From Chitinophaga pollutisoli (GTDB lineage Bacteria > Bacteroidota > Bacteroidia > Chitinophagales > Chitinophagaceae), in NCBI RefSeq assembly GCF_038396755.1, contig NZ_CP149822.1:2046001-2110000 (forward strand): a DNA stretch of 64,000 nucleotides. The letters run 5' to 3'. The notes beneath the pieces are model-generated. The model saw only the letters and a list, made by a program, of their open reading frames with translations, had not been told where the DNA came from and searched no databases. Numbering within the stretch: the first letter of the stretch is position 1; each line of letters starts with the position of its first letter. A program made the translations under genes and the position numbers. Shown here in pieces: positions 59,499 through 64,000 of this stretch.

Positions 59499-60404
59499 TT
59501 ATTTAATCATTTCTATCAAACTATTTGATTCTTCTATAATCCATTGATTATTCAGAATCAGCTCTTTTATAAGTTCCATTTGGTCGTGACTTAATAGAAA
59601 GTCTATATTTCTGCTGTTATTAATCCATTTACTATTATGCTCAGTTTCGTCAATATCTTTCGGGGTACCGTTTGGTGTAAGAAGTTCAATTGTTGGTATC
59701 TTTTCTTTCACCAATGGATAAATGATAAATAGACCGTCAAAATCCCAGTCACAAGAGTAATAAATTGGCAATCCTCTAGTATCTACGTAGTCCAACTTGC
59801 CTATATTTTTACCACCTGCATACCATAACTCTATATTATTAGCTCTGGCCAATATAGGGCGCTTCAAAAAGTCAATATTTTCACAAAGGACGATACACTT
59901 AGGATTGTTGCATTCTAGCACATATTTGTATTGTAAATCTTTATCATCCGCTAACTCCTCAATTTGCAAAAGTGTTTTTACAGCATTGATTAAAGCCTCC
60001 TTTCCCAATAGATACTTTTCATTTTTGAAAAACATAAGGGATACAATTCTAACAGTTGCTTCCTTTTTGATTATCTGCTCCCTGAGTGGCAATAAGTTGC
60101 CAGTATCCATATCCTCTTTTATCCCCATCAATACTTTAATATCGGACTCTTCAAAACGAAGCTGATGTTTTAATAGTTCATTATCTGATAAAAAGGCTTT
60201 ATAGTGGTTGTACTTTTCCAGATAATCTTTTTCATATATCTCAGTAAAGCCGTATAAAATGAAGAGTTTATTGTGTGATCTATCAAGTATCCGAAGTGAA
60301 TTAATCAGATAATTGATTTCACCACTTTTTTCCAAGGTATCATTCAGCCTTACCTCACCTGTTATATATAGATTATTTAATGCCCTCAACTCAATCCAAT
60401 TCAT
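59499..60404 (-). CDS. JetD-like Toprim protein of a Wadjet-type system
   Basis: 301 residues. The C-terminal half has the Toprim layout: CIVLCENIDFLKRP with the acidic Glu near 174, a strand-turn LWYAGGKNIGKL, and YYSCDWDFDGLFIIYPL with the DxD near 218-220. In Wadjet, JetD is the nuclease that cuts plasmid DNA after loop extrusion. This protein is shorter than usual JetD, and its N-terminal half (about 1-160) does not show the standard DUF3322 motifs, so it may belong to a separate branch. Its ATG overlaps the SMC stop codon (ATGA, 60401-60404). AT-rich, unlike the core genome. Confidence 0.7.
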   Translation of the reverse strand: MNWIELRALNNLYITGEVRLNDTLEKSGEINYLINSLRILDRSHNKLFILYGFTEIYEKDYLEKYNHYKAFLSDNELLKHQLRFEESDIKVLMGIKEDMDTGNLLPLREQIIKKEATVRIVSLMFFKNEKYLLGKEALINAVKTLLQIEELADDKDLQYKYVLECNNPKCIVLCENIDFLKRPILARANNIELWYAGGKNIGKLDYVDTRGLPIYYSCDWDFDGLFIIYPLVKEKIPTIELLTPNGTPKDIDETEHNSKWINNSRNIDFLLSHDQMELIKELILNNQWIIEESNSLIEMIK

Positions 60405-63400
60405 TTTGCAATTCTGTTTATATAGATGTTCAGATCTTCATTGCTATCCTTTGTCTTAAAATAAGAAGCTGAAGGGCAGTAATTAATATTATCATCTTCT
60501 TTTCCCTTGATCAAATGATGAGCATACCACTCATCCGACAATCCGATATTGAACGTATGAGGAGCCATTGTCACAATCTGATATTGGAACTCCTCCGCAA
60601 TAGCAGGAAAAGTATTAAAGTTAGTGTTGTCCAAACTTCCCAATTCCTCCAAAATAATAAACCTTAAACCATTACGCTTTTCTTTTTGTACAGCAGAAAG
60701 TCTTGCAATGCCCAGTAGCGCAATAGCAGAATAGGTTTCTCCGGTACTGCCAGGAACCTCTGTTCCAAACTGGTCCGTGAGTTTAGCTGACAGCTCGAAA
60801 TATGTTTTTGGATTTAGCAATTTATCGATCGGTATTTTGTCTTTGATCTTTGCTTGTTTCTTAAAGAAATCTTCAATAAAGTCAACTATAGATTGTCCAA
60901 AGTGTAATTCACCTTTTGTTGCAGTATTCCGAACTTCATAGGCCATCTGTTTGATATAATCAATCTTTATTTCTTTATTACCATCAAATTCGAGTTTGAA
61001 ATAAAACTTCCCGCTGATCTTCCGGTCAACAAAAAACGCGTTTATCCTCTTTACCTGATCATCATATTTATCGTATCGCTCAGTAGTTTTACTGAATATC
61101 TTAATCATATTGTCCCTGATACCATTGGCGATGGTCGTTCGAGTTTGATTAGCCTCCTGTAAAGCTGTAGCGATATCATCGGTAGATCTAATTTTGCTTC
61201 CCAACAATGCTTCTTCCAAAACTCTGAATGAAAAACCCTGATCTTTAATTGCTAATTGCACGGCTGGGTTCTTTTCATTACTCGTTTCTTCAAATGAATT
61301 GGAAATGCCTATAAATGCTGTTTTATATTCTTCCCATAACTCATTGTAGTTGCGTCCCAATGCTTCAATATCCTTGGGTGTTGAAGAAGGAAAGTTTTCT
61401 ACGTTTTCTTGAAAATCTTTGTAGTAAGCACTATTGAGCGTATTAAATTCTGTTTGCTTTTTAATTAGGTTGTCAATGATTGTCTGTAAATCCCGTTTAT
61501 CACGCTGTATCTTGCTTTCCAAAGAGTCGAGCTTTGTTTGCCTAGCTCCTTTTTGTTCATAAAACTTATCTTTCTTATCGCTCCATTCTTTACGAACTTT
61601 CAACAATTCCTTTTTTACAACTTCAGGCTCATCATATGCAACCTTAAACCTGTTTTTAATTTCCAATAATTCCTCTTCCTCTCTTTTCTTTTGTGATCGC
61701 AATTGTGATATCTTTTCATCAATCTGTAAGATACAGGCTACCGCACTTTTTAATTTTTCGATATTACTGCTTTCGACAAGCGATATATCAAAGGAATGGT
61801 CAAAAAGGCTGGTATCATAAGGCTTTCCATCTGTGATATGCTCCAATGCTTCTATCTTGCTATTTATCGAGCTAACTTCTGCATTCAGTTTATGCATTAA
61901 TTGTTGAACCGATTGCTCCAGATTTGCCCTGTCTCCCAATAACGCTGCATCAGGATTAAATTGGATAAACTGGTGTAATGCGCCTAATTTTAGCCAAATC
62001 CCTTTCGAAGATGAGTTGGCCTTAAAATCCCTGATCAGTTCATCAGGATTAACGTATTGAGCTGAATTGTCTGGGGTAGTAACTTCAGAAACAGGTGTGG
62101 TTGCATAATATAAAACGGCCTGTAACTGTTCGTTGTCTAACACTGGCAAATTCTTGATATACCAATATAAAAGGCCATTTTCATCTTTATTCCATAATAA
62201 CGACAGCAGCTTTTCTTTGACCGATTTTTCCTTTTTTAAAGATGATTTTAATTCATCCAAAATCTCCAATTGTTCCTTTCTAATTCGGACAATGTTTTCG
62301 AGTGTTCTATACTTTTCTAGATAAGGTTTCGCAAATGCGATTTCCTTTTTTATATCTTGATTATACCTGCTTAAAATATCAATTTTTTGTATCTCATTGT
62401 TCCAGCTACCAGCTATTTCAGGAAGTATAAACATTTTAAGCTCGTTGATATCTTCGCCCAACTTTTCTATGCTGGTGGTTAATGTTTCATAACGGTTGAA
62501 CATATTAAAATTTGCATCTGCTTCCTCGTAACCCTGTTTTATTACTTTTTCTTCCGCCGGAAGATTTTCGATGGCTGTTTTAAGTTCATCAAGTTCAATT
62601 TGATGGGTTGCTATCGCTGCCTTGCCTTCTGCTTCTCTATCCTGTAGTTGCTTTAATTCTATATACGCGTTATGTAATTCTGCTTCTTTAAATGATTTGA
62701 ATTTTGCTTTATGAGACTGCTCCAATTCCCTTAAGCTGATTAACCTTTTTTGCTTGTTGGATAGGTTCTGAATATCCTTATTCAAGCTTTCATATTCTCG
62801 CAAAATCTTTTCAAGCTCGGATTGCTCTTTCTGAAAGTTGGAAAGAATATCTTCATCGGATTCTTCAAAGAGAAATTCTTTTAAGTTTCTGGAAGCTTGG
62901 TTGCCACTCAAATTCAGTGTTTTAGCTTTTGAAAAGGATTGTATTACCTTAGCAAAGGCTTTTAGATTTTTATCCTGGCTGAGATTCAGAGGAAGGATAT
63001 TTTTATCATAAAGAAATTTATAGTACGTGTTGGCGCTTTCATTATTACCGAAGAAGTTGAGCCGAAGTCCCTGTTTTTCGTAGAGGAATGTTGCTAACTC
63101 CTGTATGTCAACTATTTCTTTCTCTCCTGACTCTTTTTCTTTCAATAGGTCTCTGGCGAAGATTAGCCCTTCTTTTTCAAGCACCAGTTCATTTATTTTC
63201 AGGTTCATATCTGCCTGCTTGGTGACAACAAAAGGAATAATACGTTTGCCTTTCTGACTGTTTATTTGTATTCCTATAGTTATAAATTTTCCTGTGTCAA
63301 CTTCGATATTCAAAAAGCAATAGGCGTATTTAGTTTTATAGGGAAGCGTACTGATTTGTCGTTCTTCTTTTTTTACACCATCAGTCCCGAATTTGATGAG

Positions 63401-63565
63401 ATCCTTATCATATACAAATACCATTTGGAGTAAATCTGCAATAATGGATTTCCCTACGCCATTGGAGCCAACAAAATCTGTTCTTGTCGGATGAAAGAGG
63501 TAATCGTGTACATAATGCTTCAGAACACCTACGGTGGATAAGGAGTAGATTCTTGGATAACTCAT
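60401..63565 (-). CDS. SMC/MukB-like ATPase (JetC-like)
   Basis: 1054 residues. Walker A GSNGVGKS at 33-40, preceded by YSLSTVGVLKHYVHDYLFHP rather than the NWGTF-type strand of textbook JetC. Long coiled coils at about 225-440 and 560-770 flank a hinge-like middle. Signature-like GSTGETYSAIALLGIARL near 950 and Walker B RFIILEELGSLD near 968, with a D-loop SLD. This is the head-coil-hinge-coil-head layout of SMC motors that extrude DNA loops. ATGA overlaps join it to the genes on both sides. The unusual N-terminus and STGE signature suggest a divergent Wadjet/MukB subfamily. Confidence 0.85.
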   Translation of the reverse strand: MSYPRIYSLSTVGVLKHYVHDYLFHPTRTDFVGSNGVGKSIIADLLQMVFVYDKDLIKFGTDGVKKEERQISTLPYKTKYAYCFLNIEVDTGKFITIGIQINSQKGKRIIPFVVTKQADMNLKINELVLEKEGLIFARDLLKEKESGEKEIVDIQELATFLYEKQGLRLNFFGNNESANTYYKFLYDKNILPLNLSQDKNLKAFAKVIQSFSKAKTLNLSGNQASRNLKEFLFEESDEDILSNFQKEQSELEKILREYESLNKDIQNLSNKQKRLISLRELEQSHKAKFKSFKEAELHNAYIELKQLQDREAEGKAAIATHQIELDELKTAIENLPAEEKVIKQGYEEADANFNMFNRYETLTTSIEKLGEDINELKMFILPEIAGSWNNEIQKIDILSRYNQDIKKEIAFAKPYLEKYRTLENIVRIRKEQLEILDELKSSLKKEKSVKEKLLSLLWNKDENGLLYWYIKNLPVLDNEQLQAVLYYATTPVSEVTTPDNSAQYVNPDELIRDFKANSSSKGIWLKLGALHQFIQFNPDAALLGDRANLEQSVQQLMHKLNAEVSSINSKIEALEHITDGKPYDTSLFDHSFDISLVESSNIEKLKSAVACILQIDEKISQLRSQKKREEEELLEIKNRFKVAYDEPEVVKKELLKVRKEWSDKKDKFYEQKGARQTKLDSLESKIQRDKRDLQTIIDNLIKKQTEFNTLNSAYYKDFQENVENFPSSTPKDIEALGRNYNELWEEYKTAFIGISNSFEETSNEKNPAVQLAIKDQGFSFRVLEEALLGSKIRSTDDIATALQEANQTRTTIANGIRDNMIKIFSKTTERYDKYDDQVKRINAFFVDRKISGKFYFKLEFDGNKEIKIDYIKQMAYEVRNTATKGELHFGQSIVDFIEDFFKKQAKIKDKIPIDKLLNPKTYFELSAKLTDQFGTEVPGSTGETYSAIALLGIARLSAVQKEKRNGLRFIILEELGSLDNTNFNTFPAIAEEFQYQIVTMAPHTFNIGLSDEWYAHHLIKGKEDDNINYCPSASYFKTKDSNEDLNIYINRIAK

Positions 63566-64000
63566 GGCGCTTCATCATTTTTAAGTTGCTGGCTAAATGC
63601 ACTAAAATCCTGAAGCTCCTCCTGGTACAGTTTGGCCAAACGGTGAATGGCCGGTCTTAACTCAAAAACCAGGTCTTCGTTCCTTCCCGATTGTCTTTCT
63701 ACCCAGCCTAACTTATCAAAATTCTCTATCGTCTTGCTGAATCTTGTATGCACTTCATTCCATTCCTTCTCATCATAAGACGCTCTGATGTCATTGAACA
63801 AAATCCGTTTGTAGGCTTCCTGATGATCACTCTCTAATATTTGTGTTTTGATGTCATTCCAGTAAATAACCTTTTCTTCGTCAAAATACTTCTGGTAGTA
63901 CATATCCAAAAGCGTCAATCCAATTAGTGTTTGTAATTCAGTGAGTTCTTTATTACGGCTTGCATCACTTAATTTCCCCTTCCCGTTTTCTGTGAAGTCG
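63562..64000 (-). CDS. JetB/MukE-like protein, 5' end cut by window
   Basis: The frame is open from the window edge (codons from 63999: DFTENGKGKLSDASRNKELT) to the stop at 63562; 145 residues visible. The TTG at 63918 is internal. Helical, with a winged-helix-like ending: FSKTIENFDKLGWVERQSGR, then NEDLVFELRPAIHRLAKLYQ, as in MukE/JetB accessory subunits of SMC-kleisin complexes. By gene order (kleisin, MukE-like, SMC, Toprim) a JetA/MukF-like gene is expected just beyond 64000. Stop codon overlaps the SMC start (63562-63565). Confidence 0.65.
   Translation of the reverse strand, partial: DFTENGKGKLSDASRNKELTELQTLIGLTLLDMYYQKYFDEEKVIYWNDIKTQILESDHQEAYKRILFNDIRASYDEKEWNEVHTRFSKTIENFDKLGWVERQSGRNEDLVFELRPAIHRLAKLYQEELQDFSAFSQQLKNDEAP

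Follow-up and report, generated by a model that had tools for sequence, protein, structure and literature searches.

A divergent Wadjet-type SMC cassette as a probable exchangeable module of defence operons in Bacteroidota

The stretch analysed here (the window, 64,000 nucleotides) comprises bases 2046001-2110000 of the 6.08-Mb single-contig genome of Chitinophaga pollutisoli (NZ_CP149822.1). It ends inside a minus-strand operon with the order SF2 helicase, UG5 reverse transcriptase, nitrilase-like protein, kleisin, KITE, SMC and Toprim. From profile matches and modelled folds, the last four genes are assigned to a divergent Wadjet/MksBEFG-type cassette, with a predicted function. It is probable (about 0.68) that this machine is self-contained and exchangeable, a module of polycistronic defence operons that usually stands at their end. 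The genes, their predicted folds, conserved residues, tight operon spacing and DNA mosaicism are shown directly, whereas co-transcription, loop extrusion, DNA cutting and defence are inferred.

Cassette genes and their products

Locus L001 reaches past the window end; window position equals L001 position plus 55999. The Toprim gene (59499..60404, minus strand, 301 amino acids) forms the 3' end of the operon and is preceded on the same strand by the genes of an SMC/MukB-like ATPase (60401..63565, 1054 amino acids) and an MksE/MukE-like KITE protein (window 63562-64236 = L001 7563-8237, 224 amino acids; Pfam MksE, 9.1e-25). The KITE gene crosses the window end, with its 3' part at 63562..64000 and the remaining 236 bp outside. 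Four-base ATGA overlaps join Toprim to SMC (60401-60404) and SMC to KITE (63562-63565), confirming the three genes and two overlaps named in the original prediction, which had been made from the window alone. A kleisin gene had been expected past 64000 and was found directly beyond the window when the sequence was extended (L001 8213-9569, minus strand, split over three frames); its identity is supported by the modelled fold of an intact relative.

The window SMC protein matched the Pfam MukB N-terminal model above the cut-off (E 1.4e-7), and a Rad50/RecN identity was not supported. Its motifs are Walker A GSNGVGKS, preceded by SLSTVG, the signature GSTGE and Walker B IILEE. The Walker A pattern G..G.GKS and the catalytic Glu were invariant in an alignment of 61 SMC rows. 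The Gly-Ser of the signature was also kept in 61/61, followed by T in 47, G in 49 and E in 31 rows. Both sequence features singled out earlier, SLSTVG before Walker A and STGE, are thus present and are partly typical of the family; STGE is presumably MukB-like. The residue before the catalytic Glu (window SMC residue 973, Walker B) was Glu in 34/61 rows, the window's included, and the usual Asp in 27/61, and this division coincided exactly with the two halves at the deepest split of the midpoint-rooted SMC tree.

Three acidic residues of the Toprim protein, E175, D219 and D221, predicted to be catalytic, were invariant in 65/65 rows. Foldseek comparison of the Toprim model with the PDB gave JetD as the top match and also matched the TopoVI-A fold; a second comparison, to 8b7f, covered model residues 60-301. 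An OLD or primase identity was not supported, the fold matching JetD/TopoVI-A instead. The SMC and Toprim profiles, searched against PDB sequences, gave no meaningful match. PADLOC Wadjet models matched the cassette weakly at best (window SMC to JetC1, 4.5e-6; L053 Toprim to JetD1, 8.1e-7). The JetA and JetB models found nothing at E<=1 among the kleisins and KITEs scanned, and the window Toprim protein had no match at E<=1 to Pfam, PADLOC or NCBIfam models. The earlier reading was partly supported. The assignment to a divergent Wadjet/MukBEF-type operon with a JetD-like Toprim protein was borne out, as was the kleisin; the longer operon, the exchangeable character of the module and the split kleisin had been missed.

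Occurrence of the cassette

SMC relatives were gathered as 23 named loci and by whole-genome searches. Matches occurred in 13/198 genomes of relatives (E<=1e-3) and, at E<=1e-20, in 3/395 genomes sampled across the phylum, the window's own genome being counted in both, and in 19/320 (f24), 12/399 (f23) and 16/349 (f25) genomes; some genomes occur in more than one of these tallies. A viral home was rejected (the patterns used brought up no relative in viral_contigs), as was a plasmid home (nothing in the plasmid collection matched at E<=1e-10).

This set of four genes recurred in unchanged order on a single strand in 70/73 loci fetched around SMC relatives, the window's included, a recurrence that makes the arrangement more than chance. 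The 73-locus set was drawn up without L044-L046 (the same places as L033, L035 and L036) and short search loci. Counts over 68 loci omit L095, L126, L132, L025 and L134 (duplicates or short fragments), and the 64-locus list behind the kleisin frame lengths further omits L038, L039, L101 and L106 (broken genes).

The cassette resembles MukBEF/MksBEF in its KITE (family profile against the PDB: MukE, 9.2e-15), its kleisin (fold match of the intact relative's model: MukF, 2.2e-5) and its SMC N-terminus. To our knowledge, MukBEF condensins have no Toprim nuclease. MksBEF condensins are likewise described without one (PMC10586767), whereas in 70/73 of the present loci the SMC gene is followed by one for a Toprim protein. 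A chromosome-organising condensin with a domesticated Toprim partner, serving no defence, would agree with KITE and kleisin proteins nearer to MukE and MukF than to JetB and JetA. It is nonetheless very improbable given the rare, patchy occurrence across the phylum sample, the invariant acidic residues of the Toprim partner, the foreign base composition, the serine recombinase next door and the defence neighbours.

Partner systems

A gene was called co-operonic when it lay on the same strand, encoded at least 150 amino acids and ended at most 100 bp from the cassette. Upstream of the kleisin such a gene was found in 29/68 loci, with gaps of -8 to 68 bp; downstream in 8/64; and 35/68 loci had one on neither side. 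Near-copies stay in the 68-locus counts, and removal of seven leaves 27/61 upstream vs 8/57 downstream. Strand alone was similar on both sides (same-strand neighbour upstream in 41/64, downstream in 39/64).

PADLOC recognised a defence protein in 28 of the 29 upstream operons (28/68 loci), of about a dozen kinds; the calls were made on proteins scanned directly or assigned by homology to a scanned one. The upstream partners were UG5 reverse transcriptase (L001, L023, L029); Gabija of several subtypes (L024, L027, L033, L037, L092, L143, L144); Tmt (L026, L043); Hachiman with HerA-DUF4297 (L028, L129); Avs2 (L032); Avs3 (L050); Lamassu (L022, L101, L106); PDC-M62A (L100, and L103 with Lamassu genes further up); HerA (L131, and L034 with SIR2, where the HerA gene is joined to the next gene merely via a 70-aa frame); UG10 (L097); PifA/Qat-like genes (L053, L054); and, with modest matches, RADAR (L041; RdrA 4.3e-32, RdrB 6.2e-33) and a Ppl-like gene (L148; Ppl 5.4e-24). 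L146 is the single upstream operon without a match, its neighbour being unscanned. L094, with a UG9 reverse transcriptase, is not among the 29, small frames intervening. Seven of the eight downstream neighbours were scanned and four are defence genes (Gabija in L021, PifA-like in L100, PDC-M62A in L144, Shedu in L151); those of L097, L142 and L143 gave no defence match, and that of L130 was unscanned.

Canonical JetD_C occurred in 43/326 genomes of the same phylum, the window's not among them. It was frequent among genomes of one family (f38), with several copies in some. Twenty canonical control loci were fetched, hand-chosen, and 11 of them had JetA and the upstream side visible in a simple open reading frame list. 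The co-operonic rule held upstream in 3/11. In L184 (4096-15643) a type III restriction-modification pair (methyltransferase, PADLOC 2.7e-135) precedes the canonical JetABCD at a distance of 41 bp, and in L183 (157 aa) and L196 (182 aa) the upstream genes are small and unscanned; in L191 a PDC-S01 candidate lies 116 bp away. The association with defence partners thus looks stronger in this branch than in canonical Wadjet, the control being small (11 loci); the downstream side of the 68 loci is the better control.

These counts bear on the view that the cassette lands near defence genes by crowding and that adjacency has no functional meaning. Defence systems do collect in islands, L184 offers a canonical instance, and L021, L151, L100 and L144 carry defence genes downstream instead or as well. 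Same strand with short gaps is, however, concentrated upstream while strand alone is alike on both sides. The DNA mosaic set out below breaks at gene ends, and in helicase-bearing loci the swapped part is flanked by the helicase block and the cassette. Taken with these points, crowding is a distinctly improbable explanation.

A protein of 341-343 aa, with N-termini alike by eye, lies between the HerA genes and the cassette in L034 (6949-7980) and L131 (8701-9726) and directly before the cassette in L146 (7820-8845); a PADLOC scan of the L034 copy gave no match. A 350-aa protein before the Lamassu genes of L022 (1958-3010) has a relative (98 bits) before the UG9 reverse transcriptase of L094 (4781-5773). 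On visual inspection, the 350-aa protein is a candidate for the MBL-type nuclease in a known nuclease-protease pair.

DNA mosaic and SMC tree

Thirteen loci were compared by blastn, giving 78 pairs, 7 with the same upstream cargo and 71 without. In the 71 different-cargo pairs cassette homology started -60 to +82 bp from the kleisin start and ended -160 to +191 bp from the Toprim stop. Mean segment identity was up to 91% despite different cargo (L024 Gabija vs L028 Hachiman; L024 vs L029 UG5). The helicase gene was a second shared block in seven helicase-bearing, different-cargo pairs, with 88-94% DNA identity, and this block ended within about 5 bp of the helicase stop codon; in those loci, therefore, the exchanged part lies between helicase and cassette. 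The helicase at the operon head is a conserved block of its own in L001 (12920-16171), L023, L024, L029 and L043. L029, from Sphingobacterium sp. CZ-2, has an intact cassette.

On the SMC tree of 61 rows, a quick tree with long-branch warnings, the 25 cargo-bearing rows (12 cargo labels) needed 17 changes, and the Gabija label alone 6 changes for 7 rows. L021 was scored cargo-free although Gabija lies downstream, and L094, L101, L103 and L106 are absent for lack of a long SMC frame.

Tight spacing to so many partners raises the question of functional coupling, in which the partner would switch on the cassette, which would then act downstream as its effector or amplifier, and defence would need both. 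The signal might be DNA ends, single strands or replication intermediates of a kind that any partner makes. The spacing agrees with it, 29 loci having gaps of -8 to 68 bp vs 77-940 bp to the neighbouring gene in the 31 loci without a co-operonic upstream gene (eight loci fall between these groups, showing small frames, a degraded region or gaps of 119-146 bp), as does recruitment of the cassette by many unrelated systems. A precedent exists in nuclease-protease pairs, repeatedly acquired by Hachiman, Avs, Lamassu and DRT systems, with activation conserved in both tested (PMC12799240). Such coupling is still unlikely, since 35/68 cassettes have no co-operonic partner, no protein was seen that is common to the partner operons, and cargo and cassette are not co-inherited on the SMC tree. 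Doubtful, too, is a broader form in which the cassette would be a common second stage for sensors of unrelated kinds (such as reverse transcriptases, Gabija, Hachiman, Avs, RADAR and Lamassu), cargo and cassette acting together on a shared DNA intermediate of infection.

The operon in the window genome

From the helicase down to the kleisin the spacings are 6, -1 and 27 bp, and kleisin and KITE overlap by 25 bp. The partner genes, all on the minus strand, encode an SF2 helicase (L001 12920-16171, 1083 aa; PF04851, 1.7e-23), a UG5 reverse transcriptase (L001 10820-12913, 697 aa; PADLOC 1.7e-113, RVT_1 1.3e-7) and a nitrilase-like protein (L001 9597-10820, 407 aa; PADLOC 7.3e-107, Pfam CN_hydrolase only 0.26). 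The reverse transcriptase carries YVDD, and the stand-alone PADLOC RTasNitrilase model also gave a hit (2.9e-31). Reverse transcriptase and nitrilase are both UG5/DRT-like in matching the PADLOC RT_UG5-nitrilase models. Unlike in UG5/DRT systems, the nitrilase is not fused to the reverse transcriptase (the separate genes overlap by 1 base), a helicase gene stands in front and the SMC cassette behind.

Beyond the helicase and divergent to the operon lies a serine recombinase gene (L001 16781-18247, plus strand, 488 aa), followed by a tRNA-Asp gene (L001 18681-18755, minus strand). The operon has 35.4% G+C vs 55.6% in window positions 1-57000, from which we infer that the region is an acquired island. 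A search for attachment-site repeats between the two island ends gave just two 12-bp matches. A search for a Bacteroidetes-type promoter before the helicase gave a single weak pattern, and a terminator search 3' of the Toprim gene gave one pattern on the operon strand vs 0.8 expected by shuffling.

The kleisin is one frame of 420-480 aa in 61/64 loci, the exceptions being L001, L103 and L141. A core cassette gene was split over frames in 8/68 loci (L001, L038, L039, L094, L096, L101, L103, L106), which suggests cost, decay or assembly errors. At somewhat less than even odds, this genome carries a decaying, inactive copy of the cassette. The three-frame kleisin and the split genes elsewhere speak for decay. 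Both frame changes, however, lie near single-base runs, where long-read assemblies err, and full-length open frames are kept by KITE, SMC and Toprim as well as by the helicase, reverse transcriptase and nitrilase genes.

Discussion

With Wadjet/JetABCD (also MksBEFG and EptABCD) the cassette shares its four-gene order (kleisin, KITE, SMC, Toprim), the JetD-like Toprim fold with TopoVI-type acidic residues, and a sporadic occurrence. It differs in several respects. The Toprim protein, where intact, has 301-328 aa vs 380-403 aa in 19/20 control loci, in line with the short nuclease noted earlier. The NWGTF motif, invariant before Walker A in 7 canonical JetC control sequences, is missing; kleisin and KITE are closer to MukF and MukE; the PADLOC Wadjet models respond weakly; and an operon is shared with an upstream defence system in 28/68 loci.

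Several observations weigh against an exchangeable Wadjet-type module. By hhalign, the relation to canonical Wadjet was clear for Toprim and KITE alone (88% each); for SMC it was weak (50%), and for kleisin there was none (0.4%). Full-length superposition of the Toprim model on 7til was poor (rmsd 13.7 over 393 aligned columns, TM 0.38). No profile confirmed a JetD N-terminal (CAP/DUF3322) domain, JetD_N/DUF3322 being absent among the three families listed for 56 Toprim members. Presence or absence of cargo was clustered on the tree (12 changes vs a shuffled mean of 19.7, 0/500 as low), so part of the pattern is inherited. The restriction genes before the canonical JetABCD of L184 show such an arrangement outside this branch as well. 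Finally, the kleisin gene of the window genome, split over three frames, is either broken or mis-sequenced, so that this copy is possibly inactive.

The proposal for Wadjet is that SMC motors linked by a kleisin extrude DNA and so activate JetD on small circles (PMC10586767). In the exchangeable module favoured here, the kleisin would likewise join two SMC motors whose ATPases would extrude DNA loops, and the JetD-like Toprim protein would cut DNA once extrusion comes to a halt, for instance on small circles or on DNA that is foreign in some other way. The cassette would work on its own, as suggested by the many copies without a partner. Recombination at its edges would let partner systems gain it or swap around it. 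The short gaps would place it under the partner's promoter by co-transcription, so that a single promoter would give the partner a second line of defence, directed at a different class of invader. In this operon the partner is the UG5 reverse transcriptase with the separate nitrilase and the helicase. In DRT1, a nitrilase is controlled by untemplated, protein-primed DNA synthesis (PMC13275509), and by analogy untemplated DNA made by the reverse transcriptase of this operon may control a growth-stopping nitrilase.

The nuclease-protease pairs (HamM/Avs1a type) are a like case of one effector module common to unrelated defence systems, but consist of an MBL nuclease with a fused protease rather than a four-gene SMC motor-nuclease cassette. 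SMC_prok_B is listed among occasional neighbours of reverse transcriptases (PMC8934634). In the accessible parts of the literature consulted, including PMC8934634, PMC10952713, PMC12839542, PMC10853773 and PMC12799240, no such cassette was found, which does not establish its absence in print.

The analysis names a branch of SMC nucleases that PADLOC recognises weakly and provides matched pairs, close cassettes with different partners, that are usable for experiments. It makes testable the question of one effector machine for many sensors vs independent layers stacked under one promoter. The findings suggest that Bacteroidota build their immune operons out of blocks, a loop-extruding nuclease being one of them.

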